NCBI RefSeq assembly: GCF_036345915.1
Contig: NZ_CP107785.1
Coordinates: 8,556,001 to 8,620,000 of the forward strand
DNA length: 64,000 bases
Direction of reading: 5' to 3'
DNA from: Nocardia sp. NBC_00565
GTDB lineage: Bacteria; Actinomycetota; Actinomycetes; Mycobacteriales; Mycobacteriaceae
This document shows positions 348 to 19,693 of this stretch, one piece after another. The notes below the pieces were generated by a model. That model saw nothing but the letters and a program-made list of their open reading frames with translations, ran no database searches and was not told the origin of the DNA. Made by a program: the position numbers and the translations under genes. The first letter of the stretch is position 1. Every line of letters starts with the position of its first letter.

Positions 348-354
348 AAGATCT

Positions 355-373
355 TCTTGAACTGGATTCACTT
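355..373. promoter_or_regulatory. Operator-like palindrome, regulon copy A
   Basis: TCTTGAA-CTGGA-TTCACTT matches the 7-5-7 pattern AACTGAA-N5-TTCAGTT seen at five other promoters between here and 19692. It sits just upstream of the leftward flavin oxidoreductase gene. A TetR-type operator is the natural reading; the binding protein is inferred. Confidence 0.6.
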
Positions 374-427
374 CATGAGTTTGCCTCGATGTGATTGACA
401 CCACAAGGGGCTGCGGATAGATTCTCA

Positions 428-446
428 AACTGAGGTCAGTTCAGTT
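428..446. promoter_or_regulatory. Operator-like palindrome, regulon copy B
   Basis: AACTGAG-GTCAG-TTCAGTT, one mismatch from the consensus. It lies 11 bp upstream of the short frame at 458 and in front of the transporter operon. Copies A and B together occupy the divergent promoter region. Confidence 0.7.
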
Positions 447-457
447 TCGGAGGTTCG

Positions 458-520
458 ATGGATTTCTTGCTGGTGCACGGAGCCTGCCCGGCGAGCTGGC
501 CGCTCTTCTCGATCAGGTAA
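458..520 (+). pseudogene. 20-codon stub resembling the start of an alpha/beta hydrolase
   Basis: ATG at 458 has a good GGAGG at 449-453 and lies directly after operator copy B. The 20 residues begin MDFLLVHGACPASWP and stop at TAA (518-520). The pattern FLLVHGA-x(3)-W is the first beta strand and oxyanion loop of alpha/beta hydrolases of the salicylate-esterase/hydroxynitrile-lyase type, which continue for about 220 more residues. I infer an internal deletion that left the promoter, ribosome site and first codons. The stub may now act as a translated leader for the downstream lipoprotein gene, which starts 16 bp later and has a poorer ribosome site of its own. Confidence 0.5.
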
Positions 521-536
521 GGAAACAGATTCCCTC

Positions 537-1574
537 ATGAAATCTCTGACCAAGGCGGTCGCGGCGCTCGCGATTGTCGCCTCGACATTCGGCCTGGCCG
601 CCTGCGGTGGGAATTCGTCCGCCGCCAAGCCCGTCGATGGGAGCTGGGAGGACGTTGTCGCCGCGGCCAACGGGGAGGGCGCCGTGATGCTCTACTCGAG
701 CCAGAAGCCGGCCAACCTCGAAGCCCTGAAGACCGCGTTCCAGGCGAAGTATCCGCGGATCAAGCTGGACTTCGTGCGCGGTACCGACGCCGACATCAAC
801 CCGCGGGTGGAGACGGAGAAGAAGACCGGGAAGGGCACAGCCGATGTGCACATGCTGACCGATGCCGCGTGGATCGCCAATGCCGCGAAATCGGGGGCGT
901 ACTCCACCGAGTTGGTCGGGCCGGATCTGAAGGCTCCCGAGTATCAGCCGGACAAGAGTGTGCTCAACAACCGGTTCTTGCTGACGAGCGCGGCAGTTTT
1001 CGCGCTGGGCTGGAACACCGGTGCGGTCCCGAACGGCCTGAAATCTCCCCAGGACATAGTGAATCCGGCCTATCGGGGCAAGATCGGAATCGTCAATCCG
1101 TCCGGCATCGCCTCCTACGTCGATCTGTACCGGTACTACGCGCGCACCTACGGCGAGGACTACTGGAAGCAACTCGCCGCCCTGAAGCCACGGATCTACC
1201 CAAGCGCTCTGGGTGTCGCCCAGGCGCTGACCTCCGGTGAAATTGTTGTGACGCCTTCGGTTCAGCCCTTGGTGACCGAAGTGGCCGCAGGGGCTCCGGT
1301 CAATTGGACCCTGCCACCGTCGCCGTGGGGCACCCCCTGGTACAGCCAGGTGACGAGTGTGGCGCCGCATCCCAATGCCGCTCAGGTCCTGGCGAATTTC
1401 ATGGTCACCCGCGAGGGACAGGCAGCGCTCAACGGGGGATACGCGGCGGTGTTATCCGATGTCCCCGGCGCGGTAGCCCGGGCTCAGGACATCGCTGCAC
1501 CGGACACCAGTGATCTGACGCCCGAGAAGATCGAGAAGTACTCCCAAGAGTGGTCCCAACTTTTCCAGAGCTGA
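537..1574 (+). CDS. ABC transporter substrate-binding lipoprotein (family 1, Fe3+/AfuA-like fold)
   Basis: 345 residues. The first 22 form a lipoprotein signal peptide ending in the lipobox LAAC-GG, so the mature protein should be anchored outside the membrane by Cys22. The body has the features of family-1 extracellular solute-binding proteins of the iron/AfuA group: VMLYSSQKPANLEALKTAF in the first lobe, a TADVHML hinge strand and GWNTGAVP. It delivers its ligand to the permease and ATPase at 2358-5212, which lie in the same operon separated by one SDR gene. This fold binds ferric ion but also small organic acids and phosphonates; given the catabolic neighbours, an organic acid is likelier than iron (inference). 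Confidence 0.85.
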   Translation: MKSLTKAVAALAIVASTFGLAACGGNSSAAKPVDGSWEDVVAAANGEGAVMLYSSQKPANLEALKTAFQAKYPRIKLDFVRGTDADINPRVETEKKTGKGTADVHMLTDAAWIANAAKSGAYSTELVGPDLKAPEYQPDKSVLNNRFLLTSAAVFALGWNTGAVPNGLKSPQDIVNPAYRGKIGIVNPSGIASYVDLYRYYARTYGEDYWKQLAALKPRIYPSALGVAQALTSGEIVVTPSVQPLVTEVAAGAPVNWTLPPSPWGTPWYSQVTSVAPHPNAAQVLANFMVTREGQAALNGGYAAVLSDVPGAVARAQDIAAPDTSDLTPEKIEKYSQEWSQLFQS

Positions 1575-1594
1575 CAGTGGACGGGAGTACTGCA

Positions 1595-2347
1595 TTGCGT
1601 GGAGTCAACGTATTGGTCACCGGAGCGTCCGGCGGAATCGGCGGCGCGACCGCCGAACTGTTCGCGAGCAAGGGCGCGACGGTGTACCTCACCGACGTCG
1701 ACGACGCGGCGGGGGAGCGCCGCGCACATGAACTGGGGCCGACTGCGCATTACCGTCGGCTCGATGTGACTGCCGAATCCGATTGGCAGGCAGTCACATC
1801 CGATATGGATCGCGCGGGGCACCCCCTGCAGGTGCTGGTGAACAGCGCCGGGGCAGCGATGAAAGCGCCACTGACCCAAACCACGCTGCAGCAGTTCCGC
1901 AGGATGATCGACCTCAATCTGGTCGGCACCTTCCTCGGACTGCAGGCGGCCGCCGCGGCGATGGTCGCAGGTGGGTCGGTCATCAACATCTCGTCGCTGC
2001 GGGGCGTGCTCGCGACCGCCGAACTCGGTGCCTACGGCGCGTCGAAGTTCGGTGTCCGCGCCCTGAGCAAGGTCGCGGCACTGGAACTGGCCGATCGTGG
2101 CATCCGTATCAACACGGTGTGTCCGGGCAGCATCGACACCGAGATCACCTCGGTTCCCGACTTCGCCGCCGACGATGTCGAAGCCTATGTGCGATCCATC
2201 CCCATGCAGCGGCGTGGCAGCCCCATGGAGGTCGCGAAGGCGATCTTGTTCCTGGCCGGTGCCGACAGCAGCTATGTCACCGGGATCGACCTGCTGGTCG
2301 ATGGCGGCACTGCCGCCGGAGTCCGCACACCCAAGAAGCAGACCTAG
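1595..2347 (+). CDS. Short-chain dehydrogenase/reductase
   Basis: About 250 residues with the classical SDR layout: nucleotide-binding TGASGGIGG near residue 10, NSAGA, catalytic Ser in INISSLRG, and the YGASKFG Tyr/Lys pair, followed by VCPGSIDTE. It would oxidise or reduce a hydroxyl/keto group with NAD(P). I chose TTG at 1595 because GGGAG at 1583-1587 gives ideal 7-base spacing and the residues after it (RGVNVLVTG) are a normal SDR start. GTG 1577 and ATG 1550 are in frame but would overlap or abut the preceding gene. It sits between the binding protein and the ATPase, so import and first oxidation are probably co-expressed. Substrate not predictable. Confidence 0.85.
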   Translation: MRGVNVLVTGASGGIGGATAELFASKGATVYLTDVDDAAGERRAHELGPTAHYRRLDVTAESDWQAVTSDMDRAGHPLQVLVNSAGAAMKAPLTQTTLQQFRRMIDLNLVGTFLGLQAAAAAMVAGGSVINISSLRGVLATAELGAYGASKFGVRALSKVAALELADRGIRINTVCPGSIDTEITSVPDFAADDVEAYVRSIPMQRRGSPMEVAKAILFLAGADSSYVTGIDLLVDGGTAAGVRTPKKQT

Positions 2348-2357
2348 AAGGCATGAA

Positions 2358-3521
2358 ATGAGCTCGCAGTTCACAGTTTCCGGTCTCACCAAGACCTACG
2401 GATCGAACGTCGTCGTCGACCAGCTCGACCTCGCGATCGAGGAAGGCGAACTCCTCGTACTACTCGGCCCGAGCGGTTGCGGCAAGACGACCACCTTGCG
2501 CTGCCTCGCCGGATTGGAGACGCCACAGGATGGTTCGATCACCTTCAAGGACCGGCGTGTGTTCGACGCGCAGTCGAAGCTGAATGTGCCTGTCCACAAA
2601 CGGAATATCGGGATGGTGTTCCAGTCGTACGCGCTGTGGCCACATATGACCGTGCGCAATAACATTCGGTATCCGCTCCAGGTCCGCAAATTGCGGAAGG
2701 AGATCTCGAGCGGAGCCGTCGAAAGTGCCGCTGCCATGGTCGATTGCGCAGAGCTGCTCGACCGGTACCCGGCGCAGCTCAGCGGTGGACAGCAGCAGCG
2801 CGTCGCGGTGGCCCGTGGCTTGGTGGCCCAACCGGATCTGGTGCTCTTCGACGAACCGTTGAGCAACCTGGATGCCAGATTGCGAGATCAGGTTCGTTCA
2901 CAAATCCATCAGCTGCATCGAAGTCTCGGATTCACGGCGGTTTTCGTCACCCATGACCAAGCCGAGGCGTTTGCCCTCGGCGACCGCGTCGCCATTATGA
3001 AGGCGGGCAAGATCGAACAATACGATGCGCCGGAGCAGGTTTTCGAGCATCCGGTGTCGGAGTACGTGGCCGCATTCATCGGTATGGCCAACCGGCTGGA
3101 ACTGCGCCGTGGTCCCGGTGGCTGGATGACCTCGGCCGGTGACGATATCGACCTGACGCGTGCGGTTGTGCGCGGACGAGCCGACGAAGGTACGTCCGCG
3201 GTCGCGCGGCTGCGTCCCGACGATGTCGTGGTGCATTCGTCGATCGACGAAGTGCCGCAGGGCGATGTGGCATTGCATGCCGAGTTGGTGACATACGAAT
3301 ACGGCGGCCGCCACTTCGACGTGACCGTCCGAACGGGTGGCGAACAGCTCGCGGTGCGGGTCGATGCGGCCGCCTATGGTGCCACGTTGCGACGAAGCCG
3401 CCCAGGAGATCCCATGATCGTCAGTTTCTCTCCCGCCAGCTTGCGCGTGTTCGCACACCCAGACGGCGCCGACGCCGATGTGCCGGAGCTGGCGACGGCG
3501 GGTGCGGGAGGGCAGTCGTGA
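2358..3521 (+). CDS. ABC transporter ATP-binding protein (Fe3+/spermidine/putrescine type, TOBE domain)
   Basis: 387 residues. The ATPase domain shows Walker A GPSGCGKTT, signature LSGGQQQRVAVARGL, Walker B LVLFDEPLSNLDA and the H-loop THDQAEA. The ~140 C-terminal residues form a TOBE-type regulatory domain, as in FbpC/PotA proteins. ATG 2358 follows an AAGG sequence; the frame is open further upstream but that part lies inside the SDR gene. The stop overlaps the permease start (GTGATGG), which indicates translational coupling. It energises uptake through the membrane protein encoded next. Confidence 0.9.
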   Translation: MSSQFTVSGLTKTYGSNVVVDQLDLAIEEGELLVLLGPSGCGKTTTLRCLAGLETPQDGSITFKDRRVFDAQSKLNVPVHKRNIGMVFQSYALWPHMTVRNNIRYPLQVRKLRKEISSGAVESAAAMVDCAELLDRYPAQLSGGQQQRVAVARGLVAQPDLVLFDEPLSNLDARLRDQVRSQIHQLHRSLGFTAVFVTHDQAEAFALGDRVAIMKAGKIEQYDAPEQVFEHPVSEYVAAFIGMANRLELRRGPGGWMTSAGDDIDLTRAVVRGRADEGTSAVARLRPDDVVVHSSIDEVPQGDVALHAELVTYEYGGRHFDVTVRTGGEQLAVRVDAAAYGATLRRSRPGDPMIVSFSPASLRVFAHPDGADADVPELATAGAGGQS

Positions 3522-5212
3522 TGGCCACGCTGACCGCCACCCGGTCCCTTGCGATACCCGCGCACTGGCGGGCCAGAATTGGATATCTGGCGTTGCTGGC
3601 AGTTCTCGCCTATCTGGTCGTATTGCCGATGATCCGGCTGCAATCGTTGGCATTCGAAAACGGCGCGCAGGGTTATCGAAACCAGTACGGGCGCTTCGAT
3701 ATCGCGGAAACGATCGGGACCACCATCGCACTGGCCCTCGGATCGCTCGTGATCGCGATGGTGCTCGGCACGGTGCTGGCGTTCGCGGCGAGCCGACTTC
3801 CGGCGAAACTCGGCTTCCTGCGGATCATCCCGATCCTGCCGATCGTCATGCCCGCGGTCGCCAATGTCGTCGGCTGGGCCTTTCTGCTGTCGCCAGGGCC
3901 CGGTTACCTGAACCTGGTGCTCAGGAAGTTGCCGTGGTGGAGCGGATCGGACATCGGACCGATCGATGTCTACACCGTTCCGTGGATCATCATTCTCACG
4001 GCCTTCGGACTGACGTCGTTCGTCTACCTTTTCGTCAGTGCGGGCATGCAGAACATCAGCTCGGAACATCTCGAGGCCGCACAGGTGAGTGGGTCGTCCA
4101 CGCTCGGAGTGTTCTTCCGGGTGGTGCTGCCACTGCTGCGCCCGTCGTTGATCTACGGCGGCGGAATTGCGTTGTTGCTGGGGCTCGGTCAGTTCACCGG
4201 TCCACTGCTGCTGGGCCAGAACAGTGGCGTCAAAGTGCTCACCACCGAGATGTATCGGCGAGTGTCCGAATCACCGTCCGACTTCGCCGCCGCCGCTGCG
4301 GCCGGTTCGCCACTGGTGATCTTCGGGCTTGTCCTGGTGCTGATCCAGAAGGCCTTGCTGGGCAACCAGATTCGCTTCGTCACCCACGGCGGCAAGGCGT
4401 TCGCGCCGTCCACCGGCCGCGCCACCTGGGCCACGGTGACGATCGTCGGCTACGCGTTGTTCGCCCTCGTCATCCCCTTGGTCGGGTTGATCATCGTGGC
4501 CTCGACGCGGTACTGGTCAGGGTCACTGTCGTGGGATCTGTTCACGCTCGACAATTTCCGAGAGTTGGCCTCCACCGACGCGATCGTCGAATCGGTGATC
4601 ACCAGTGTGCTGACATCGCTCGGCGCGGTGGCGATCTGCGTACCCATCGGCTACGTGATGGCCAACCTGATGGTGCGGGGCCGACGCTACAAAATATTGG
4701 CGCTGATCGGTGACTTCGTCACGGCATTGCCGCTCGGCATCCCGGCGGTGATCTTCGGCGTCGGTTTCTTGCTCACCTATACCGAGCCGCCACTGATTCT
4801 GTACGGGACGCGAACAGTGATCATCCTCGTCTACGTCGTACTGATGTTGCCCTTCGCGACGCGCATGCAGATGACCGCGATGCTGTCGCTCGGTAGCACC
4901 TATACCGAGGCGTCGGCAACCAGCGGAGCATCACCATTCGTCACGAACGCGCGGATCATGCTGCCGTTGATGCGCCCCACCATCCTCAGCGCGGTCGCGC
5001 TGATGTTCATTCTGCTGACGCACGAATTCGCGGCCTCGCTATTGGTGCGTGCGTCGACCACCCAGGTGATGGGGACCCTGCTGTTCGATATGTGGCAGAA
5101 CGGTTCCTACCCACTGGTCGCGGCGATGGCGCTGCTCATGACAGCGGTCACCACGATCGGCGTTGCACTCGCCATGCTGGTCGGCGGCCGCAACGTCCTC
5201 AGTAATCTCTGA
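3518..5212 (+). CDS. ABC transporter permease, two fused inner-membrane domains
   Basis: 564 residues, about twice the normal size of a binding-protein-dependent permease. Two repeats of roughly six membrane segments are visible, each with an EAA-type loop: LEAAQVSGSS in the first half and YTEASATSGAS in the second. This is the fused ThiP/FbpB arrangement, in which one polypeptide supplies both permease halves. GTG 3518 overlaps the ATPase stop and has GGGAGGG upstream; ATG 3521 is an alternative. With the lipoprotein and ATPase it makes a complete importer. A second SDR gene follows after 21 bp. Confidence 0.88.
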   Translation: MMATLTATRSLAIPAHWRARIGYLALLAVLAYLVVLPMIRLQSLAFENGAQGYRNQYGRFDIAETIGTTIALALGSLVIAMVLGTVLAFAASRLPAKLGFLRIIPILPIVMPAVANVVGWAFLLSPGPGYLNLVLRKLPWWSGSDIGPIDVYTVPWIIILTAFGLTSFVYLFVSAGMQNISSEHLEAAQVSGSSTLGVFFRVVLPLLRPSLIYGGGIALLLGLGQFTGPLLLGQNSGVKVLTTEMYRRVSESPSDFAAAAAAGSPLVIFGLVLVLIQKALLGNQIRFVTHGGKAFAPSTGRATWATVTIVGYALFALVIPLVGLIIVASTRYWSGSLSWDLFTLDNFRELASTDAIVESVITSVLTSLGAVAICVPIGYVMANLMVRGRRYKILALIGDFVTALPLGIPAVIFGVGFLLTYTEPPLILYGTRTVIILVYVVLMLPFATRMQMTAMLSLGSTYTEASATSGASPFVTNARIMLPLMRPTILSAVALMFILLTHEFAASLLVRASTTQVMGTLLFDMWQNGSYPLVAAMALLMTAVTTIGVALAMLVGGRNVLSNL

Positions 5213-5233
5213 CCTCGAAAGGGCTGCACGGCA

Positions 5234-5998
5234 ATGACTCTCGGTGTTTCGAGGCTCGACGGCAAGGTCGTACTGGTGACCGGCGCGACAGGGGGAATCG
5301 GCGTCGAAATCGTGCGCCGCCTGGCCGAGGAAGGGGCATCGGTCGTGGTGACCGATATCGATGTCGAGGCATGCGCGAAGCTGACCGCCGGTCTGGAACA
5401 CGGTGAGCGGCACCAGGTTCTAGGACTGGACATCGCGCAGGAGGCCCAGTGGCAGCAGGTGGTGTCCGCGGTCTCCGAACGCTTCCCGGGTCTCGATGCT
5501 GTGGTCAACAACGGCGCCATCGGCAGTCTGGCATCGGTAGTCGACGAGGATCTGAACCGATACAACCGGGTGATCGAGGTGAGCCAGACCGGCACCTGGC
5601 TGGGTATGAAGCATGCGGGCGCACTGATCGAGCACACCGGCGGCGGATCGATCGTCAATATCTGCTCGATCCTCGGCACCGTCGGCGGCCTGGGCAACAG
5701 TCTGGCCTACGCCGCGGCGAAGGGCGCCGTCCGCAGCATGACGAAAAACGCCGCATTGCATTGGGCGACAAGGGGAGTGCGAGTCAACTCGATCCACCCG
5801 GGATTCATCGAAACCCCGCAACTCCTCGAACGATACGAGGGCACCGAGCGACACCAGGCGATGGTCGCGAACACCCCGATGGGCAGACTCGGCCGCGCCG
5901 AAGAGGTCGCGGCCGCAGTCGCATTCCTGGCGGGCAACGATTCGACCTTCATCACCGGCACCGAACTCTACGTGGACGGCGGCTGGACCTGCGCCTGA
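5234..5998 (+). CDS. Short-chain dehydrogenase/reductase
   Basis: 254 residues. It has TGATGGIG for cofactor binding, VVTDIDVEA (an acidic end of beta-2, favouring NAD over NADP), NNGAIG, NICSILG with the catalytic Ser, and YAAAKGA with the Tyr/Lys pair. The tail IETPQLLERYEG and the C-terminal YVDGGWTCA are typical of 3-hydroxyacyl or alcohol SDRs. It is the last gene of the rightward transporter operon, starting 21 bp after the permease. Downstream lies an IS630 remnant and then convergent leftward genes. Confidence 0.85.
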   Translation: MTLGVSRLDGKVVLVTGATGGIGVEIVRRLAEEGASVVVTDIDVEACAKLTAGLEHGERHQVLGLDIAQEAQWQQVVSAVSERFPGLDAVVNNGAIGSLASVVDEDLNRYNRVIEVSQTGTWLGMKHAGALIEHTGGGSIVNICSILGTVGGLGNSLAYAAAKGAVRSMTKNAALHWATRGVRVNSIHPGFIETPQLLERYEGTERHQAMVANTPMGRLGRAEEVAAAVAFLAGNDSTFITGTELYVDGGWTCA

Positions 5999-6074
5999 CC
6001 GGCGAAGCCCGTGGTGCCCGCCGACCGAGAGCGGGGCGGTCATATCTTGCTGACCGCTAAGGAGTCGCCGCCAA

Positions 6075-6270
6075 CTAGTGGTCCTGTGATTCGATCCGGC
6101 GGGGTGTCTCGCGGTTGTCCAACACCGCGTGCACATCCAACTCGACCGGAATGCTCGCGTCGATCTGTTCGAAGAACCGCAGGACATCGCTGCCTGCGTG
6201 GCCCTTGTGCAGCTCTGTCAGGACCTCGCCGGTGGCGATGTTCATCGCGGCGGCTACTTTGTCATCGAAT
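6075..6270 (-). pseudogene. IS630-family transposase, C-terminal remnant
   Basis: The last ~61 residues of a transposase frame are left. They read AAAMNIATGEVLTELHKGH, then FFEQIDASIPVELDVH, then AVLDNRETP. The strand ending VLDN corresponds to the second catalytic Asp region (LHLVLDN) of IS630-type DDE transposases. No N-terminal part or inverted repeats are visible. The remnant overlaps the end of the metallo-hydrolase gene, so it marks a junction made by an old insertion and deletion between the two catabolic operons. Confidence 0.65.
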
Positions 6271-7303
6271 GGTCCGACAGCTGTCCATCGCCTTGCTCGA
6301 AGTGCTCCACGCCGTCTGCATCCTTCGCGGACAGCACATTTCGGGCGACCAGTACGTCCAGATGTGCCATCGTCTCGCACGTCGCAACCATCTGATTGAA
6401 ATCGTCGAGCGTGCTGAACGCGCGGTCGCGCCGCGTCCACGTCAACGCTCGGGCCACCGCCACGCCGGTGCACGGTCCCAGATCGCCGACGACAGTGACG
6501 ATTTGCTCGAACCGGTGGTCATGATGGGCGAGGAGTGCACGAGCGCGTTGCCCGACGCTGCCTCCGGTGGGACCGTGCGCGGGCAACATCTTCTGCTCGT
6601 CATCGTGCTGCAGTAACGCCAATGACCGGAGGAAGTTGTCCAACGGCAGTTCCCACGGGCCCAATTCGAAACCGATCGACGGGGTGATCGTGGGCAGCAC
6701 GTGGTCTCCGGTGAAGACGAGCCCCCGGTCGCGATCCTGAAAGATCATGTGGCCCTTGGTATGTCCGGGTGTGGCTACCGCATGGAGATCGAGCCCGGCG
6801 ATGGCCAGCGCGCCGGGGCGCAGCCAGTGGTCGGGCTGTTCCCAGTCGTCGCGGTCGAACGGTTCGGCGATGCCTGCCGCATGGGCTCGTCGCGCGATAT
6901 CGTCCGCGCCGGCCCGACGTAGTTCCCGCAGCGAACTGTCGGGGACGTTGCTGTTCAGTGCGTGAATGGCGCTGAGCCCGCCGGCTTCATCGGCGCCGAG
7001 ATGAACTCGGCAGCCGTGCCGACGACGCAGTTCGATGGCGAAGGTGTAGTGGTCGCGGTGGATATGGGTGACGAAGACATCGTGAATATCGGCTGCCGAC
7101 CGGCCGATTCGGGCCAGCGCGCCGGACAGCTCCCGGTAGGTGTCGGGCCGGTGCCAGCCGCCGTCGATGAGTACGAGGCCGTTGTCGGTTTCCAGTACGT
7201 ACACGTTGACCGCGCGCAGGCCGTCCTGCGGCATCTGCAGCGGGATGCGGTGGATCCCATCGGTTATCGGATAACACCCGGGTTCGGCCCATTCGGCGCT
7301 CAT
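6254..7303 (-). CDS. Metallo-beta-lactamase fold hydrolase
   Basis: 349 residues. The zinc-binding motif HIHRDH is at residues 80-85, preceded by LVLIDGGW. ATPGHTKGHM and TGDHVLP supply the further metal ligands. The ~100 C-terminal residues form the winged-helix extension (VAVARALTWTRRDRAFS) seen in LACTB2/thioesterase-like members. The fold hydrolyses thioesters, lactones or phosphodiesters; in this context a lactonase or acyl-CoA thioesterase is the best guess. Start ATG 7303 overlaps the EthD gene stop by 4 bp. The stop falls inside the IS630 remnant, so the original C-terminus may have been replaced by ~10 residues. Confidence 0.85.
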   Translation of the reverse strand: MSAEWAEPGCYPITDGIHRIPLQMPQDGLRAVNVYVLETDNGLVLIDGGWHRPDTYRELSGALARIGRSAADIHDVFVTHIHRDHYTFAIELRRRHGCRVHLGADEAGGLSAIHALNSNVPDSSLRELRRAGADDIARRAHAAGIAEPFDRDDWEQPDHWLRPGALAIAGLDLHAVATPGHTKGHMIFQDRDRGLVFTGDHVLPTITPSIGFELGPWELPLDNFLRSLALLQHDDEQKMLPAHGPTGGSVGQRARALLAHHDHRFEQIVTVVGDLGPCTGVAVARALTWTRRDRAFSTLDDFNQMVATCETMAHLDVLVARNVLSAKDADGVEHFEQGDGQLSDHSMTK

Positions 7304-7635
7304 TGGGTCGCGGGGGCGAGTGGCACCATCGTCTTCTCCTCGCCGTACCAGATCATGCGCCGTCCCCGCATAGTGCCCACGTTCTCGACGGCGGCCTGCC
7401 ATTCCGGGCTCGCCAATGCGGCGTCGAGCGCCTCGCGGGATTCGAAACTCAGAATCGACAGACCGTCCCAGCCGGACGACTTCTCGTCGAAGAATTCGAG
7501 GAGTTCGGTGTGCTGCCAGCGCAGCAGGCCCGGCAGCGGGTAGGTCACCTCCGCGTGTTCACCCCGCCACCATTCGATGAACTGCTCGTGGGTCCAATCG
7601 TTGGGACGTGATGCGAGGACGATCAGGTTGTACAT
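7300..7635 (-). CDS. EthD-domain protein
   Basis: 111 residues: MYNLIVLASRPNDWTHEQF, then EWWRGEHAEV and a beta-rich half. This is the dimeric alpha-beta barrel of EthD-like proteins, normally ~100 residues. Members occur in alkyl-ether, polyketide and steroid catabolic clusters, and in most the chemistry is unproven. ATG 7635 is preceded by TAGGAG. Operator copy C lies just upstream, so this gene and the metallo-hydrolase form their own two-gene unit, separate from the large operon to the right. Confidence 0.75.
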   Translation of the reverse strand: MYNLIVLASRPNDWTHEQFIEWWRGEHAEVTYPLPGLLRWQHTELLEFFDEKSSGWDGLSILSFESREALDAALASPEWQAAVENVGTMRGRRMIWYGEEKTMVPLAPATQ

Positions 7636-7644
7636 GCGACTCCT

Positions 7645-7663
7645 AACTGAATTCTGTTCAGTT
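7645..7663. promoter_or_regulatory. Operator-like palindrome, regulon copy C (perfect arms)
   Basis: AACTGAA-TTCTG-TTCAGTT, a perfect 7-bp inverted repeat with a 5-bp spacer. It is 10 bp upstream of the EthD start and just downstream of the TetR gene. It is the best match to the regulon consensus. Confidence 0.75.
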
Positions 7664-7703
7664 TCGGCGGGCGTAGAGCTCCCACCGTGTGGGCGGTGGG
7701 AGC

Positions 7704-8327: not shown

Positions 8328-8372
8328 CAGCGCTCATACCCCCGCATTCGATGGTGTGCATTCGAAACGACT

Positions 8373-11799: not shown

Positions 11800-11800
11800 A

Positions 11801-13761: not shown

Positions 13762-13791
13762 GGTGCGGCTCCTGAACTGGTGCGGTCGATA

Positions 13792-14793
13792 TCAACCGGC
13801 GAGTAGCGCGGTCCCGGTCTCGATCAGGCGGTTGATGGTGGCGGGCAGCTTTTCCTGGTCGGGGTCGTAGTGCCGACCTTCGCGGTGTCGGCGCAGGTTG
13901 TGGCCCATGATCGCGGCCATCTTGAGGCGGCCCAGCGCGTCGAACCACGTCATATCGGTGAGCGCGGGCCCGTCGCCGACATACAGGTCGACCAGCTCTT
14001 GCGCCGAAGCCAGCCCGGGCACCTCCCGGCCGACGCCGGGAAAGTTGCTGCCATCGGCAAAGACGAGGAACCAGCCCAATTCGACCCGAGGGTCGCCTGC
14101 GCTCCAGATCTCCCAATCGATCAACGCGACCGGTTCGACCCCGTCGGAAATGATGTTTCCGAGGCGGTAATCACCATGCACCAGTGTCGGTGTGGTCGGT
14201 TCGGGTGTGGTCCGGCCGAGCAGCTCGAGCAGCCGGTCGCCACCGGCAACGAGGTCGGGCGGGACGGCGCCGAGGGTGCGAGCCCAGCGGGCGAGTTCGG
14301 CGTCCGGTGTCAGCGGTGCTTGCGCGCCGGGCACGGTGTTCGGATCTATTGCGTGCAGGCGCGGCAGAATTTCCGCGGCCCGCCGCATCCGGGCCGCGGC
14401 CAAGCCGGTTTCGACGGCCGGATCGTCCAGTACCGGTTCCAACGCCTCCCCGGCCACGAATTCCATGGCGAACCAGGCGGGTTCGATGTCGTCGACCGCA
14501 ACGATGTCCGGTACGGGAACAGGTGTGTGCGCCAATGCCTGCATGATCCGGGCCTGTCGCAGCATGTCGTGCCGGCCGATGGCCTGCTGCCCCTCGGGTA
14601 CGGCCTTGACCACGAAGTCACCGCCGGTCGTTCGCACCCGGTACGTCAAGCCGGAATGTCCGCCGAGCAGCGGTTCGAATGCGGTGACCGTCACGTCGCG
14701 GTCCGCCTGCAGCCGGGTTCTGACGCGTTGTTCCACGGTGTGCCCACCCGTCGCCCGACCGCCACCCCCTACGGAATCGCTACCTGAACTCAT
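13792..14793 (-). CDS. APH-like phosphotransferase (ACAD10/11-kinase or LvaA type)
   Basis: 333 residues with an aminoglycoside-phosphotransferase/choline-kinase fold. FVVKAVPEGQ carries the ATP-binding Lys, LVHGDYRLGNI is the Brenner catalytic loop (HGDxxxxN), and LIDWEIWSAGDP is the metal-binding segment. The gene starts at ATG 14793, overlapping the preceding ACAD stop, and is followed directly by an ACAD10/11-type dehydrogenase. Relatives in levulinate catabolism (LvaA) and in mitochondria phosphorylate the hydroxyl of 4-hydroxyacyl-CoA. An antibiotic-resistance role is unlikely because the gene is embedded in a beta-oxidation operon. Confidence 0.82.
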   Translation of the reverse strand: MSSGSDSVGGGGRATGGHTVEQRVRTRLQADRDVTVTAFEPLLGGHSGLTYRVRTTGGDFVVKAVPEGQQAIGRHDMLRQARIMQALAHTPVPVPDIVAVDDIEPAWFAMEFVAGEALEPVLDDPAVETGLAAARMRRAAEILPRLHAIDPNTVPGAQAPLTPDAELARWARTLGAVPPDLVAGGDRLLELLGRTTPEPTTPTLVHGDYRLGNIISDGVEPVALIDWEIWSAGDPRVELGWFLVFADGSNFPGVGREVPGLASAQELVDLYVGDGPALTDMTWFDALGRLKMAAIMGHNLRRHREGRHYDPDQEKLPATINRLIETGTALLAG

Positions 14794-15998
14794 GGGCGTG
14801 GCTCCCTCGGTAGTCCGAGAACTCGCTCGGCGATGATGTTGTGCTGAATCTCGTCGGTTCCCCCGGCGATCCGATAGCCGGGCGCGCCGAGAATGTGCTC
14901 GGCCCACGCGAAGGTTCCCCAGCGACCGGAGTCCACGGTGAGGTCTGGCCCGAGTAGCAGGCGCACCACCTCGGACGTGCGCGCCATCGTGTCGGTCGCC
15001 AGTAGTTTCCCGATCGAGGCCTCCGGTCCGGGGTCCTTGCCCGCGACGACGGCGCCCGCCACCCGCATATTGCCGATTCGCTGTAGATAGCTGCGTATTA
15101 CCAGGTCGGCGACCTTATCGCGTTCGATCTCGGTCAGCTCCCGTCCGAGATGCTGGGCCAGCGCGACCGCCTGATCCGCGTTCGCCAGACCGAGGTTGCC
15201 GCCGTCGAGGCGTTCGGCGGCCAATACGGTGAGCGCTACCGGCCAGCCCTGCCCCACCGGTCCGAGCCGGTAGCTGTCGTCGAGTCGAACACCATCGAGG
15301 AAGACCTCGTTGAACGAGCTGCCACCGGTCATCTGCCGGATCGGGCGAACGGTCACCCCCGGTGTGGTCATCGGCACCAGGAAGACGGTGAGTCCGGCGT
15401 GTTTCGCTGCCGCGGTATCGGTTCGGCACACGGCGACGCCGATATCGGACACCCGCGCGCCCGAGGTCCACACCTTGTGGCCGTCGAGCGTCCACATGCC
15501 ATCGGCGGATCGGACGGCGCGCGTCCGCACCGCTGCCAGATCGGAACCGGCCTCGGTTTCCGAGAACAATTGGCAGGCAATGATATCCGTGCGCAGCATG
15601 GCCCGGACATAGCGTGACCGCTGCTCGTCGGTGCCCCATTGCTCGATGGTGGGAGCGACCAGTTGTTGTGTCACCGAGAACATCTCGGTGCGCCGTGGCA
15701 CATCGAAGTCCGCTTCGGCGCGCCGGAAAGCAAGGACGTACGACAGCGGCAGACCGCGGCCGCCGTAGGTCTCGGGCCAGTTCAGCGCGCCCCAGCCCGC
15801 GTCGAATTTGGCGCGCTCGTACTCGCGGATCCGGTCGGTGTGCGCGCGTTCCTCCTCGGCGTTCCAGCTCTCGAAAACGGCTACCGAATCCGAACCCGAA
15901 CCCCAGACCGATTCCGCTCGGCGGACTGCCACACTGCTCAACCAGGCGAGCGCCTCATCGGTGAAGCGGACGAGGTCGGGAAGTGTCTGTGTGGTCAC
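14790..15998 (-). CDS. Acyl-CoA dehydrogenase (FadE type)
   Basis: 402 residues. N-terminal helical domain with WPETYGGRGLPL, middle beta domain with QLFSETEAGSDLA and GHKVWTSGA, C-terminal helices ending GGTDEIQHNIIAERVLG. This is the actinobacterial FadE form found in steroid and branched-chain clusters, where two different FadE chains often make an alpha2-beta2 enzyme. The shorter FadE-like protein at 18466-19602 is a possible partner. It lies 27 bp downstream of the thiolase gene and overlaps the kinase gene. Confidence 0.85.
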   Translation of the reverse strand: MTTQTLPDLVRFTDEALAWLSSVAVRRAESVWGSGSDSVAVFESWNAEEERAHTDRIREYERAKFDAGWGALNWPETYGGRGLPLSYVLAFRRAEADFDVPRRTEMFSVTQQLVAPTIEQWGTDEQRSRYVRAMLRTDIIACQLFSETEAGSDLAAVRTRAVRSADGMWTLDGHKVWTSGARVSDIGVAVCRTDTAAAKHAGLTVFLVPMTTPGVTVRPIRQMTGGSSFNEVFLDGVRLDDSYRLGPVGQGWPVALTVLAAERLDGGNLGLANADQAVALAQHLGRELTEIERDKVADLVIRSYLQRIGNMRVAGAVVAGKDPGPEASIGKLLATDTMARTSEVVRLLLGPDLTVDSGRWGTFAWAEHILGAPGYRIAGGTDEIQHNIIAERVLGLPREPRP

Positions 15999-16025
15999 TG
16001 ATTCACCTCGAAAAGTGTTGTCATG

Positions 16026-17177
16026 TCACACCGAAAGCACGGTGCAGGCGCTGATTCCGGGCGCTCCGTACACGTGCGTGAAGCCGACCTTCGGTGCTCC
16101 GGGTACCTGTCGATCTCCGGCTTCGCCGCGCAGCTGGGTGACTATCTCGTGCACCTGGCGCAGACCCGATGCGCCGATGGGTTCGCCGTTGGCGATGCAC
16201 CCACCGTCGGTATTGACCGGCAGTCGCCCGCCGATCTCGGTGTCGCCTGCCGCGATCATCGACTCCTGCTCGCCGTGCTCGCAGAAGCCGCATTCGGCCA
16301 TATGCATGATCTCGGCACCGCTCTCGGTGTCCTGAAGTTGCGCGACGTCGACATCGGCAGGGGAAATGCCCGCCTGTTCGAAGGCCGCCGCGGCCGCGTC
16401 GGCGCTCACGCTGGTCGGTTCGCCCCCGCCTTGGACGGCCGGGCTGAATACTTCGAATGAGCCGAAGCGGCGGGTGCGGTGGCTGATCGCGCGCAACCGG
16501 ACCGGGCGACCGCCGAGTCGCCGGACCGCGGCCTCGGTGGCGACGATGACGGCGGCCCCGCCCTCGCCCGGGGAGCAGAACATATATCGCGTCAACGGGT
16601 CGTTCACCATATCGGCGGCGGCGATCTCGTCGGCCGAGATCGCTGCACGTCGCCAGGCATTCGGGTTCAGACTGCCGTTTCGGTACGCCTTTTCGGCAAC
16701 CTTCGCCAAGGTCGTGCCGGAAATCCCGTATTCGCGCATATATCGGCCGATCTTGGCGCCGAAGAACTGCGTGGTGACCATGAGCCCGGCCGCGCCGTAA
16801 CCCTCGGGCAGCCCCCATTCGGCCGGTGTCGGATCGAAGGCTCCGCGTGGGTGTTTATCGAATCCGACCGCCAGCGCGATTTCGGCGGTTCCGGAACGGA
16901 CCGCATTGACCGCCGAGAACAGTGCGCTGCCACCGGTGGCGCAGCCATTCTTCACATTGCTGAAAGATATTCCGGTGAAACCGAGTTCGGCGACGAGGGT
17001 GTCGGCGAGTCCCGAACCGTCGCTACCGCCGACGGCGACATCGATGTCGGGCCAGGTCAACCCGGCATCGTCGAGTGCGGCGGCGATGGCGCTGACCGCC
17101 ATCTGACGGCCGGTGCTGCCGGGCTGCCTGCCGAACTTCGACAGCCCGGCTCCGATGATCGAAACTGTTTGTGTCAC
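16026..17177 (-). CDS. Thiolase-like lipid-transfer protein (Ltp/SCPx thiolase type)
   Basis: 383 residues from GTG 17177. The N-terminal reactive-Cys region reads VKNGCATGGSALFSAV (Cys near residue 79). The C-terminal segment is FTHVYGAPGISACTVLS in place of the usual GGGGG-containing thiolase end. That combination is characteristic of Ltp-type thiolases and retro-aldolases, which work with a DUF35 protein. The start overlaps the DUF35 stop (GTGA), so the two are translationally coupled and probably form one complex. It should cleave a C-C bond by thiolysis or retro-aldol chemistry late in side-chain shortening. Confidence 0.86.
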   Translation of the reverse strand: MTQTVSIIGAGLSKFGRQPGSTGRQMAVSAIAAALDDAGLTWPDIDVAVGGSDGSGLADTLVAELGFTGISFSNVKNGCATGGSALFSAVNAVRSGTAEIALAVGFDKHPRGAFDPTPAEWGLPEGYGAAGLMVTTQFFGAKIGRYMREYGISGTTLAKVAEKAYRNGSLNPNAWRRAAISADEIAAADMVNDPLTRYMFCSPGEGGAAVIVATEAAVRRLGGRPVRLRAISHRTRRFGSFEVFSPAVQGGGEPTSVSADAAAAAFEQAGISPADVDVAQLQDTESGAEIMHMAECGFCEHGEQESMIAAGDTEIGGRLPVNTDGGCIANGEPIGASGLRQVHEIVTQLRGEAGDRQVPGAPKVGFTHVYGAPGISACTVLSV

Positions 17178-17545
17178 TGCGCTTCTCTTTGCTGTGAAAC
17201 GACCGCGAACCGAGGTACCGGTGCGGTGCCGACGAGGTGCACCGGTGCCCGGTCCAACTCGGTGAAGTCCGCGCACTCCAGGATTGCTTGAATGCGAATA
17301 CCTTCCGGAAGCTCGACATAGCCCACCGCGAATGCTGAAAAGCCTTCGGCAGGAGGGATATACGGTGGCGACTTCGGTGGGAACCGTTGGACCGTGTAGG
17401 CCCACACCACTCCCCGCGTGCTCAACTCCATTGCGGTGGCCGTCGGCTGGACGCATCGTGCGCACATGGTGGTTGCCGGATATGCGACCGTGTCACAGAC
17501 CGTGCACCGGCTACCTTCCAGTACCGATGCTGCGTGCTCGCCCAT
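17174..17545 (-). CDS. DUF35 zinc-ribbon/OB-fold protein, partner of the thiolase
   Basis: 123 residues. The N-terminal rubredoxin-like zinc ribbon has four cysteines in CTVCDTVAYPATTMCARC. The rest is an OB-fold containing GVVWAYTVQR and FAVGYVELPEGIRI. DUF35 proteins bind Ltp2-type aldolases or thiolases and supply part of the acyl-CoA site, as with ChsH2 in cholesterol catabolism. Gene order and coupling with the thiolase are exactly as in those systems. No catalytic residues of its own are expected. Confidence 0.87.
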   Translation of the reverse strand: MGEHAASVLEGSRCTVCDTVAYPATTMCARCVQPTATAMELSTRGVVWAYTVQRFPPKSPPYIPPAEGFSAFAVGYVELPEGIRIQAILECADFTELDRAPVHLVGTAPVPRFAVVSQQREAQ

Positions 17546-17582
17546 GTCGATCTCCTCTTCGAGTCGTACGGAGCGGCGTTGT

Positions 17583-18371
17583 TCAGCGACCGACCCACTT
17601 CGGTTCGCGCTTCTCGAGGAATGCGTTCACGCCCTCGCGTGCGTCTTCGGACTGCAGGGCATTGCCCACCGCGAGATGCTCCATCACCATGAGCGATTGG
17701 ATGTCCGCATCCAGACCGCGGTCGATGGTCATCTTCGTGAGCTTCATGGCGAATGGGCTCTTGTCGACGATCGGTGCGATGAATTCGGCGACCAGGTCGT
17801 CGAGTTCGGCCGCGGGTGCCGAAGCATTGATCAGATCGAAGTCCACGGCTTGCTTGCCGGACAGCAGCTTTCCGGTCAACATCAGTTCCTTGGTCTTACG
17901 GATACCGATCATGCGGGGCAACCGGTAGATCGGACCCGCGCCACCGAAAAGCGCACGGCGAATGTGGAAGTCACCGATCAGCGCGTCCTCGGATGCGACA
18001 GCGAAGTCGCAGGAGATCATCAGCTCGAATCCGCCGGCCGTCACATGCCCCTCGAGGACCGCCACCGATGGCGTGTTCATCGAGTAGAGGCGGTCGCACA
18101 CCTTGGCCGAGAGCACCGCGACATCCATCGCATTGGTGCTGCCGACATAGTTGGCAAGCAGTTCGTCCAGGTCGAAGCCCGAGCAGAACGTATTGCCGCG
18201 GCCGCGTAGCACGAGGACTTTGAGATCTGGGTCGTTGTCGACCTCGACGATGATTTCGTCGAGTCGGTGCAGAAGTTCTGTGGTGACAGCGTTCTTCTTG
18301 TGCGGGCGATTGAGCCACACGCGGGCGACGTCGCCGTCCTTCTCCAACACGATGTGGTCGGTGTCCACCAT
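17583..18371 (-). CDS. Enoyl-CoA hydratase/isomerase (crotonase family)
   Basis: 262 residues. Oxyanion-hole segments are FCSGFDLDELL and VLEGHVTAGGFELMISCDFA. The catalytic region carries RRALFGGAGPIYRLPRMIG. At the position of the second crotonase Glu the sequence is FGGAGPIYRLPR, without a clear Glu, so an isomerase or other crotonase reaction is possible. It is the first gene of the long leftward operon, with AAAGAGG ahead of ATG 18371 and operator copy E 24 bp upstream. Confidence 0.84.
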   Translation of the reverse strand: MVDTDHIVLEKDGDVARVWLNRPHKKNAVTTELLHRLDEIIVEVDNDPDLKVLVLRGRGNTFCSGFDLDELLANYVGSTNAMDVAVLSAKVCDRLYSMNTPSVAVLEGHVTAGGFELMISCDFAVASEDALIGDFHIRRALFGGAGPIYRLPRMIGIRKTKELMLTGKLLSGKQAVDFDLINASAPAAELDDLVAEFIAPIVDKSPFAMKLTKMTIDRGLDADIQSLMVMEHLAVGNALQSEDAREGVNAFLEKREPKWVGR

Positions 18372-18394
18372 CTCGAACCTCTTTCTTGAACTTG

Positions 18395-18413
18395 AACTGG
18401 ATTCAATTCAGTT
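18395..18413. promoter_or_regulatory. Operator-like palindrome, regulon copy E
   Basis: AACTGGA-TTCAA-TTCAGTT, one mismatch from the perfect copy. It lies between the end of the ACAD gene at 18466 and the start of the crotonase gene, where the promoter of the long operon is expected. Confidence 0.7.
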
Positions 18414-18465
18414 TTACCTAGGCAACCGCTCCACGTCAACAGGAGGGCTGGCGCCGTTGGCTGAT

Positions 18466-19602
18466 TCAGATACCGATCAGGGTGCCGATTCGCGCTCGCT
18501 GCGCACGTGAATCACCCTGTAGCGCTTCGTTTCCCATTGCCCTGCGGAAGTAGGAGTGGGCGGGGTGTTCCCAGGTGAAACCGACGCCACCGTGCAGCTG
18601 GATCGCTTCTGCCGCCGCGTGCACCGCCGCATCGGTACAAACGGCTCCGGCGACCGCCACGGCCAACGAGGCCGATCCTGGGTCCTGTGCATATATCGCC
18701 GCCGCATAGCGGGAGGCCGATCGAGCACGTTCGAGAGTGACCAGCAGATCGGCCAGCCGATGTTTGACAGCCTGGAACGAGCCGATGGGGCGACCGAACT
18801 GGTGCCGAGTCCGCACGTACTCCACGGTCATCTCGAGCAGGCGGTCGACGATGCCGGTGTTCTCGCACGCTAGCGCCAGCGTTGCCAGCTCGCCCAGCCG
18901 CGCGGCGGTCGCCTCGGTGGCATCGACGTCGGTGAGCGCGATCGCCGGACATTGATCGAAGGTGAGATCGGCTCGACGGCGCGTGGGGTCGAGTACTCGA
19001 CGTTCGGTTCGGACGAGCGGTGCGCCCGGTTGGGTAGCGAACAGCCGGCGGCCGTCCGGGCATTGCGCCGAAACGACGGCTATATCGGCATTGCCGCCGC
19101 CTACCAGGTGGGTCGCTGTGCCGTGCAATAGCCACCCGGTCCGCGTCGACTCCGCGTGCACGTGATCGGTGGTGGCGGACAAGGCGCTGACCGTCGCCAG
19201 CAGGCTTCCGTCGAGAACTCCGGCGAGCAGGTCCGCGTCCTGAATGGGATCCGCCGACAGTAGTGCGTGGACGCCGAGGACTGCCGATGTGTACACCGGC
19301 TCGCATGCGAGCGCGCGACCACATTCCTCGAGCACGATCCCCAGCTCGACCATGCCGTAGCCGAGGCCGCCGCGGTTTTCGGGGACCGCCAATGTGGTGA
19401 CCGACATGTCATCGACGAGGGTTTTCCACAGCTGTGGTGAATAGCCGAGTTCGGCGGAAGCGGCCGTTCGTACCTGCTCGATACCGCTGTGTTTGGCGAG
19501 TAGGCCGCGGATGGCCGCACGCAGCTCCGACTGCTCCGGTCCGGGTGTCAGCGCAGGTGGATCCGTGCGGGGCCATGGCACTTCTATCGCGGGTGCGGAC
19601 AT
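18466..19602 (-). CDS. Acyl-CoA dehydrogenase, small FadE subunit type
   Basis: 378 residues. The family is clear from VPENRGGLGYGMVELG, RRADLTFDQCP, RHQFGRPIGSFQAVKHRLAD and the end IQLHGGVGFTWEHPAHSYF. It is shorter and more divergent in the middle domain than the 402-residue FadE of the same cluster, and its HGGVGFTWEH end is typical of one chain of heteromeric actinobacterial FadE pairs. ATG 19602 lies just downstream of operator copy F and is divergent from the NTF2-like pair. The crotonase operon follows 95 bp later with its own operator. Confidence 0.84.
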   Translation of the reverse strand: MSAPAIEVPWPRTDPPALTPGPEQSELRAAIRGLLAKHSGIEQVRTAASAELGYSPQLWKTLVDDMSVTTLAVPENRGGLGYGMVELGIVLEECGRALACEPVYTSAVLGVHALLSADPIQDADLLAGVLDGSLLATVSALSATTDHVHAESTRTGWLLHGTATHLVGGGNADIAVVSAQCPDGRRLFATQPGAPLVRTERRVLDPTRRRADLTFDQCPAIALTDVDATEATAARLGELATLALACENTGIVDRLLEMTVEYVRTRHQFGRPIGSFQAVKHRLADLLVTLERARSASRYAAAIYAQDPGSASLAVAVAGAVCTDAAVHAAAEAIQLHGGVGFTWEHPAHSYFRRAMGNEALQGDSRAQRARIGTLIGI

Positions 19603-19609
19603 CTAACCT

Positions 19610-19628
19610 ACCTAAATTGAGTTCAGTT
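19610..19628. promoter_or_regulatory. Operator-like palindrome, regulon copy F
   Basis: ACCTAAA-TTGAG-TTCAGTT: perfect right arm, two mismatches on the left. It is 8 bp upstream of the leftward ACAD start, in the same divergent promoter region as copy G. Confidence 0.6.
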
Positions 19629-19673
19629 TGATGTCTCGAGAGTATCGCGCCGGAGCCTGGACAAGAAGGGAGA

Positions 19674-19692
19674 TACTGAACTAAGTTCATTT
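19674..19692. promoter_or_regulatory. Operator-like palindrome, regulon copy G, abutting a start codon
   Basis: TACTGAA-CTAAG-TTCATTT. It ends one base before ATG 19694. The only purine-rich stretch (GGGAG) is more than 20 bases from that ATG, so the transcript of the NTF2-like pair may be leaderless, with repressor bound over the transcription start. Confidence 0.6.
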
Positions 19693-19693
19693 C

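Follow-up and report, generated by a model that had tools for sequence, protein, structure and literature searches.

A TetR-family protein and a 19-bp palindrome as the probable switch of a CoA-dependent catabolic regulon in Nocardia and related actinobacteria

The left part of a 64,000-nucleotide stretch of the soil bacterium Nocardia sp. NBC_00565 (the window; bases 8556001–8620000 of the 9.71-Mb contig NZ_CP107785.1) raises a simple question: which protein reads the palindromes that stand before several gene starts of a catabolic cluster, and with what effect? An earlier note on this DNA had reported six sites of the form AACTGAA-N5-TTCAGTT in a 20-kb region and had suggested a possibly undescribed TetR regulon. 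The answer favoured here, with a probability of about 0.82, is that the TetR-family protein encoded in the cluster would bind the palindromes, block RNA polymerase and so repress a CoA-dependent catabolic regulon, and that a ligand of the acyl-CoA type would release it. The sites, their clustering, their conservation, their gene targets and the promoter geometry were computed directly.

In the window, the motif with up to three mismatches was matched six times at five places (428, 7645, the overlapping pair 18390/18395, 19610 and 19674), and shuffled versions of the window gave a mean of 0.40 matches and a maximum of 2. The operator at 7645–7663 is perfect (0 mismatches; 32.5 bits on a matrix from other genomes, described below) and precedes the start of an EthD-domain gene (minus strand, 7635) that is followed by a gene for an MBL-fold hydrolase. 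At 428–446 (1 mismatch, 28.0 bits), the operator precedes the operon of an extracellular solute-binding protein (SBP), at its expected transcription start. The operators at 19610–19628 (2 mismatches, 26.6 bits) and 19674–19692 (2 mismatches, 27.3 bits) stand before the acyl-CoA dehydrogenase ACAD1 (minus, 19602) and the SnoaL-like protein Sno1 (ATG 19694). The site at 18395 before the enoyl-CoA hydratase (ECH) start (minus, 18371) had been described as single; it is present with 30.2 bits, but it belongs to a double operator (18390–18413), whose other half, 18390–18408, is offset by 5 bp and scores 23.6 bits. Five of the six sites thus fit the reported motif, and the sixth does so poorly: the site at 355–373 (TCTTGAACTGGATTCACTT) has four mismatches and falls below the threshold. 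With 19.3 bits, and a 5-bp-offset partner at 360–378 of 17.3 bits, it is a weak member of the set, in front of an FMN oxidoreductase gene (FMNox; minus, GTG 347–345). Gene starts were located directly behind all six sites, as had been claimed. The matrix scan of the window at 8 bits or more gave 13 matches against a mean of 1.4 for column-permuted matrices. These comprised the reported sites, the partners shifted by 5 bp and, within the last codons of an acyl-CoA synthetase (ACS) gene, 53 nt before tetR, a weak pair at 8380/8385 (15.0 and 8.6 bits), of which 8380–8398 is a weak possible operator. Apart from this pair, no further copy was found in the window at either threshold, in line with the earlier observation.

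The same palindrome recurs in other genomes. A scan of named genomes for the TetR protein gave 132 relatives, and the best 80 of the 132 were kept as loci (L035–L114, 1.615 Mb) with flanks of up to 10 kb; loci are at most ~20 kb long (41 kb for two plasmid loci), which places distant targets in other species beyond reach. A further set of loci, L017–L034, did not enter the analysis. The 80 loci come from Nocardia, Williamsia, Rhodococcus, Rhodococcoides, Gordonia, Tomitella, Aeromicrobium, Dietzia, Nocardioides, Streptomyces, Kitasatospora, Sphaerisporangium, Nonomuraea and Saccharothrix. The window TetR is 97% identical to that of Nocardia vinacea, and the region is Nocardia-like by its sequence. 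The scan of relatives that had been proposed returned 251 matches at up to three mismatches in the 80 loci, against 5 for the reversed motif (overlapping sites counted apart), and at least one match in 75 of the 80.

A matrix was built from 132 distinct 31-mers around sites at most two mismatches from the reported motif, with the window genome and L035 left out; its arms and spacing were therefore assumed, and its inner bases were not. The consensus is the 19-bp AACTGAA-Y-T-S-A-R-TTCAGTT (AACTGAAYTSARTTCAGTT). Contrary to the free N5 first described, the five inner bases are constrained, and the T and A among them are as informative as the arm G, at 1.43 bits each. The double operator is also recurrent. 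A second site of at least 15 bits at a 5-bp offset was found at 26 of 29 ECH operators (23 of 26 distinct sequences), compared with 9.5% of simulated sites; the ECH doublets are shared among related species by descent. The arrangement occurs at 3 of 33 EthD, 1 of 26 SBP, 1 of 9 ACAD1 and 3 of 6 Sno1 operators. The double operator appears typical of the main (ECH) operon, as if two dimers could bind there.

Random scatter through the genome had been named beforehand as the outcome that would refute a regulon, and the opposite was seen. Whole-genome scans used the pattern with mismatches, and matrix scoring was limited to the window, the loci and fetched sites. With the comparative consensus AANTGAANTNANTTCANTT at no more than one mismatch, all 6 places in the genome lie between 8531506 and 8575692, that is, within 44 kb of 9.71 Mb (binomial probability 9e-15). 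At up to two mismatches, 8 of 9 places fall within the same 44 kb (one pair overlapping), and at up to three, there are 41 places versus 11 in the control. The first-described pattern gave 4 places versus 0 for the control at up to one mismatch, all 4 within 8.531–8.575 Mb; 14 versus 4 for the reversed control at up to two; and 108 versus 72 at up to three, so three mismatches are near background outside the cluster.

Two of the sites with at most one mismatch lie outside the window, 20–24 kb to its left. The regulon is thus not confined to one 20-kb region: the six sites are there, but it continues to the left. The site at 8531506 stands directly before a P450cam-like P450 (L005:9559-10800), which is followed by a GMC oxidoreductase. 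The site at 8536391 lies between an FAD_binding_2 protein of the fumarate-reductase/KstD type (FAD-dehydrogenase; 87 bits to flavocytochrome c, 60 to KstD) and an aldehyde dehydrogenase (ALDH). The genes scanned between these sites and FMNox look unrelated (a glycosyltransferase, UDP-glucose dehydrogenase, WXG100, radical SAM and two MFS proteins). The far-left island is tied to the cluster by other loci, in which relatives of its FAD protein and of h239, the gene behind ALDH, adjoin SBP or FMNox.

Which genes would be controlled can be read from the relatives of each gene. Between 66 and 68 of 82 loci (two plasmid loci added) hold relatives of the thiolase-fold protein LTP, two further acyl-CoA dehydrogenases (ACAD2 and ACAD3), an APH-fold kinase, a short-chain dehydrogenase (SDR3) and ACS, with scorable upstream room. 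The usual order is ECH, LTP, ACAD2, APH, ACAD3, SDR4, SDR3, (the zinc alcohol dehydrogenase, ADH), ACS, TetR, EthD, MBL, and it is rearranged in Gordonia, Aeromicrobium and Streptomyces. Within 120 nt upstream of these relatives, sites of at least 20 bits were present before ECH in 29/29 cases, EthD in 33/65, SBP in 17/33, ACAD1 in 9/15, Sno1 in 6/9 and FAD2 in 4/11. They were rare before SDR2 (3/67) and TetR (4/81), and within this distance none was found before seven operon-internal genes, namely ACS (0/67), APH (0/66), LTP (0/65), ACAD2 (0/66), ACAD3 (0/67), SDR3 (0/67) and MBL (0/63). FMNox scored 14/14, but what is picked up there is the SBP operator in the intergenic region that the two genes share, and the count is not independent evidence; the near site of FMNox itself reaches at least 15 bits in 13 of the 14 loci and at least 20 bits in 5. 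The EthD site is mostly centred 18–20 nt before the start, and a weak site before tetR, mostly at -50 to -67, reaches at least 15 bits in 18 of 81 loci.

Regulator and sites also occur together across whole genomes. The TetR was found at E values up to 1e-30 in 10 of the 99 genomes searched (its own included). At least two sites with no more than one mismatch are present in 9 of these 10 genomes versus 1 of the 89 without it, and 17 of the 89 have one such site. Fisher tests of TetR against sites gave 6e-11 for at least two sites and 2e-5 for at least one. A close ECH is encoded in 9 of the 99 genomes, all of them with the TetR.

The position of the operators relative to promoters suggests how the switch may work. 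A sigma-70-like promoter of the SBP operon, TTGACA-17-TAGATT, was found at 395–423 (plus strand). It is the only promoter-like match in 300–20000 and is not significant alone (shuffle mean 2.9 in this range). The relatives give the geometry: at all 26 SBP operators of at least 20 bits (19 distinct sequences), a -10 hexamer ends 2–4 bp before the operator, compared with 18% in a shuffle control for any promoter-like match. Promoter-like sequences accompany 26 of 35 ECH operators, and in 24 cases the -10 ends 1–2 bp before the site. Operators directly behind the -10 are in what is, judged by their placement, a blocking position.

The candidate regulator is encoded at 7704–8327 (minus), inside the cluster as first described. 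It carries TetR_N (PF00440, 46.8 bits) and TetR_C_24 (PF17932, 68.9 bits), both over their cut-offs, and it has the features of the TetR/AcrR family: a helix-turn-helix and a ligand-binding C domain, with palindromic sites near neighbouring gene starts. In 32 aligned TetR sequences, G45-I-G-Q-T49 and L51-Y-H-Y-F-E-S-K58 of the recognition-helix region are invariant, and Ala50 is nearly so. Because of the synteny in 80 loci, the co-occurrence across genomes and these invariant residues, the palindromes are very probably the operators of this TetR. That it would act as a repressor is suggested by operator position and by kin, namely the repressors KstR2 and BkaR. A CoA thioester (acyl-CoA) probably releases the protein, by analogy with its kin (the KstR2 structure and PF17932) and given the CoA ligase in the operon and the three acyl-CoA dehydrogenases in the cluster.

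In the mechanism proposed, we infer binding by this TetR, repression, the operon limits, the acyl-CoA ligand and the substrate class. A TetR dimer would sit on AACTGAA-YTSAR-TTCAGTT, just behind the -10 at the main promoters. Bound there, it would block RNA polymerase at the ABC-transporter operon, the ECH-to-TetR operon, EthD-MBL, ACAD1, the SnoaL pair and the FMN oxidoreductase, and likewise at the far-left P450/GMC and FAD-dehydrogenase/ALDH pairs. As the TetR gene lies within the ECH operon, the regulator would be under its own control. The substrate would be imported and then activated by the CoA ligase, and the resulting CoA thioester intermediate would probably bind the TetR and release it from the DNA. 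This release would induce the uptake and beta-oxidation-like breakdown of the compound.

Similar arrangements are known from other regulators. The KstR operator is TnnAACnnGTTnnA; it is absent from the consensus found here, and membership of the KstR regulon was rejected on that ground. KstR chains match the TetR with 35 bits over residues 3–111 only. Among solved sequences, the TetR is closest to 3dcf (71 bits), followed by 3vpr (60 bits) and by KstR2 (4w1u, 49 bits), whose weaker score speaks against orthology. Bacillus FadR (NF053878), a fatty-acid regulator, is the only NCBIfam model matched at 1e-10, with 45.8 bits against a cut-off of 200. KstR2 is a repressor with a 14-bp operator, AnCAAGnnCTTGnT, and its orthologues are more than 50% identical to the M. 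tuberculosis protein (PMC3068626). The plan of its regulon is alike, with a TetR-family repressor in a CoA-dependent catabolic cluster, palindromes close to gene starts and few sites near the regulator, but the genes are others and the operator is unlike the 19-bp consensus, on which count KstR2 membership was rejected too (PMC3068626). The claim that the half-site differs from the KstR and KstR2 motifs is borne out. BkaR (Rv2506) is likewise a TetR repressor of a local acyl-metabolism operon with several palindromes; it controls branched-chain keto-acid genes through a 16-bp core, GTTA(N)T(N4)A(N)TAAC, which is unlike the consensus here and removes it as a candidate (PMC3920632). KstR3 of Mycolicibacterium neoaurum controls an aldolase, a DUF35 gene and a reductase; this operon shares a TetR-type repressor and an aldolase gene with a DUF35-type partner, but it is small and concerns the sterol side chain (PMC10398937). 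Full-text literature searches turned up no description of this motif, of such a gene set or of a regulon of this type, with a coverage that leaves out most subscription papers and bioRxiv; within it, the suggestion of an undescribed TetR regulon is supported.

Several observations weigh against the favoured explanation. The presence of the TetR in the 80 loci is by construction, as they were chosen for it, and related species are not independent of one another. The matrix arms are not independent of the reported motif either, since the input was chosen by closeness to it. No site at up to three mismatches was found in 5 of the 80 loci (L059, L072, L075, L078 and L080). In 32 of 65 loci, EthD has no operator of at least 20 bits; 22 of these loci are from Streptomyces, in which EthD is separated from TetR by other genes. 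One genome assigned to N. harenae (G021) has the TetR (75%) without a close ECH and without a site at up to one mismatch. No clear promoter accompanies the EthD operators (5/33), and only some Sno1 (4/6) and ACAD1 (5/9) operators have one. Finally, seven sites with two mismatches are scattered over the Nocardia sp. NBC_00565 genome; they score 9.0–22.5 on the matrix, and all lie inside some open frame of at least 80 codons, which is weak evidence of coding.

The scattered sites and the one site with four mismatches are also what could be said for a chance origin, or for a shared AT-rich promoter sequence. The probability left to this explanation is negligible: shuffles, reversed-pattern controls and the genome scan rule out chance, with 14 versus 4 and 4 versus 0 places in the genome at up to two mismatches and one mismatch and with the excess in the other genomes given above. 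It is improbable, too, that the palindromes are operators of a different regulator while the cluster TetR controls something else. Two other TetR genes (L005:4305-4958 and L005:6137-6871) do lie no more than 6 kb away from the 8531506 site, and G021 keeps the cluster TetR without the cluster or strong sites. Against this, L005:6137-6871 has no match across the 80 loci, in a query that did not extend to L005:4305-4958 or to further regulators, and the presence of the cluster TetR predicts sites genome-wide, beyond the loci that were chosen for it.

The position of the sites by itself would be compatible with an activator or a dual regulator. Such a role is very improbable in view of operators that begin 1–4 bp after the -10 at 26/26 SBP and 24/35 ECH sites, a blocking position, and of the repressor role of KstR2 and BkaR (PMC3068626, PMC3920632). 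A steroid-catabolism branch with a third KstR-like repressor that acts in the manner of KstR3 of M. neoaurum fits the steroid-like parts of the cluster, namely LTP with its OB-fold ChsH2_C neighbour, the IpdE2-like ACAD1, the fumarate-reductase/KstD-type FAD enzyme and a SnoaL protein; the KstR3 operon has similar parts, and the accessible part of its description states no operator for comparison (PMC10398937). The steroid-specific NCBIfam models shown (IpdE2, EchA19 and KstD types) were matched far below their cut-offs, and this branch is an unlikely identity for the cluster. Repression by the cluster TetR itself is thus the explanation under which the genes are described below.

On the left, the FMNox gene enters the window with its 5' end (1–347, minus; rest L006:16413-18344). 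It encodes an OYE/FadH-type NADH:flavin oxidoreductase (PF00724 and PF07992) that scores 295 bits on TIGR03997 (mycofactocin OYE-like), under the cut-off of 793. The SBP operon on the plus strand would comprise SBP (537–1574; PF13531/PF13416), the short-chain dehydrogenase SDR1 (1550–2347; PF13561), an ABC transporter ATPase with TOBE_2 (2355–3521; PF00005, PF08402), a permease with two BPD_transp_1 stretches (3518–5212; PF00528) and SDR2 (5234–5998), placed by synteny with an R. qingshengii gene annotated as an SDR family oxidoreductase. Directly behind the 428 operator lies a 20-codon open reading frame (458–520), whose first residues, MDFLLVHGA, are similar to the N-terminus of a complete alpha/beta hydrolase encoded at the corresponding position in Williamsia (L036:17701-18393, minus); the short frame is possibly a relic or a leader.

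On the minus strand follow the MBL-fold hydrolase (6254–7303; PF00753, scanned as the longer frame 6254–7402), whose start was taken from a 4-bp overlap with EthD in R. qingshengii, and the EthD-domain gene (7300–7635; PF07110). Beyond tetR, the ECH operon would comprise ACS (8373–9887; PF00501), ADH (9884–10999; sub-threshold NCBIfam matches), SDR3 (10999–11826), SDR4 (11801–12553), ACAD3 (12559–13761), the APH-fold kinase (13792–14790; PF01636), ACAD2 (14790–15998), LTP (16026–17198; PF22691), its OB-fold neighbour (17174–17545; PF01796) and ECH (17583–18371; PF00378), all on the minus strand; SDR3, SDR4 and ACAD2 were assigned by the NCBIfam scan. ACAD1 (18466–19602, minus) is IpdE2-like, with 184 bits on NF050027 under a cut-off of 450. 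On the plus strand, Sno1 (19694–20077; PF12680) is followed by Sno2 (20074–20448; no Pfam match), which recurs as a neighbour in other loci and closes the regulon on the right. Among the matches listed, those to curated NCBIfam models stayed below the cut-offs, in a scan that covered the cluster genes other than SDR1, SDR2, EthD, MBL and the permease; the sole model above its cut-off was a broad SDR one (glucose 1-dehydrogenase subfamily, 226 vs 215). As the matches were below the cut-offs, no substrate is named by them.

Two enzymes depart from their families at the active site. In thiolases, the cysteine is the nucleophile, and the histidines of the HD and GHP motifs are catalytic. In the 66 LTP relatives at 50% identity or more, the nucleophilic cysteine is kept (NGCATGG, aligned with NCSTG), and both histidines are replaced, with QD for HD and GEP for GHP in 66/66. 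The other enzyme is ACAD3, which is ACAD11-like (401–412 bits to ACAD11 chains, 412 at best, and 429 to the uncharacterised 4hr3, against 146 for the next acyl-CoA dehydrogenase family). LvaA/LvaC and ACAD10/11 feed 4-hydroxyacyl-CoA into beta-oxidation through an APH-type kinase and an acyl-CoA dehydrogenase (PMC12440821, PMC11342911), and the HCMR motif is essential for this activity (PMC12440821). Also conserved are a catalytic Asp and, ahead of HCMR, an Arg that is R626 in mouse ACAD11 (PMC12440821, PMC11342911), and Pro463 of human ACAD11 is the conserved proline of a widened pocket (PMC11342911). The cluster likewise has an APH-fold kinase with intact catalytic motifs (HGDYRLGN and IDWE) adjacent to its ACAD11-like enzyme. 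The RLGPG Arg is kept in 71/71 ACAD3 relatives (at least 50% identity) and the catalytic Asp (DGP) in 70/70, positions that were mapped by eye on the alignment, in which chain 8v3v has N for this Asp. The difference lies at the HCMR position, with YAMR in 68/71 relatives and HAMR in 3, and at the pocket proline (P of FFAPDVFNC, located by residue count on the alignment), with P in 28/71 and N in 43/71, including the window. The altered motifs in ACAD3 and LTP suggest a changed chemistry or substrate, and YAMR for HCMR weakens plain 4-hydroxy acid catabolism as the role of the APH-ACAD3 pair.

For the compound degraded, an alicyclic or terpenoid acid may be guessed. The P450cam-like P450 and the genes at extra operators of one other Nocardia genome, described below, are suggestive only, and what they hint at is terpenoid or alicyclic chemistry. 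Acyclic terpene utilisation (Atu) was set aside, there being no carboxylase among the Pfam matches of the cluster genes scanned. A wider proposal joins these points: an undescribed regulon, found from Nocardia to Streptomyces, would govern a widespread new route for alicyclic or terpenoid acids with two off-type catalysts, one a kinase/dehydrogenase pair that would go back to the 4-hydroxyacyl-CoA system and carries an altered active-site motif, the other a thiolase-fold enzyme that has lost both histidines and would act with its OB-fold partner as another C-C lyase. Taken jointly, this is a tentative and rather doubtful proposal, and the variable pocket proline (P in 28/71) slightly lowers its odds.

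Some loci add observations of their own. G049, assigned to Nocardia jiangxiensis, has perfect extra operator copies on other contigs (L118 and L117). One (L118:5966-8394) has a limonene-epoxide-hydrolase-like SnoaL protein and a luciferase-like monooxygenase on one side and a flavin reductase on the other; the second copy (L117:7808) is ~110 bp behind a TetR gene. At L087 and nine other loci (~10.7 kb; some Streptomyces-type), the operator behind TetR precedes a 10-member gene family instead of EthD, and the one member scanned is a Liv-type periplasmic binding protein, so that a different transporter may be under the same switch. The cluster is also present on a 595-kb plasmid of an activated-sludge R. 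qingshengii strain (L115), with two additional solute-binding proteins, and a 3-hydroxyacyl-CoA dehydrogenase and a thiolase adjoin it there. L048, filed under Kitasatospora arboriphila, is Williamsia-like in gene order and identity, which would point to contamination or transfer. The TetR relative of Nocardia harenae at L059 has an intact recognition helix, and its genome has no cluster, close ECH or strong site. In G015, a TetR-less genome that is only 78% complete, one site has the same sequence as the SBP operator usual in Nocardia. In the genome studied here, three identical weak matches at contig 918313, 1135147 and 9149260 (GATTGAGGTGAATTCAGTG) suggest a repeated element.

The analysis provides a candidate sensor-operator pair together with a defined set of ~26 probably co-regulated genes, and it flags two enzyme families, ACAD3 and LTP, with conserved but altered active-site motifs. 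The pathway is seen in Nocardia, Rhodococcus, Gordonia, Williamsia, Dietzia, Aeromicrobium, Nocardioides and Streptomyces. Since the operator is defined, a reporter driven by this promoter could reveal the inducer and so give the pathway a name; the switch is also present in many actinobacterial relatives.

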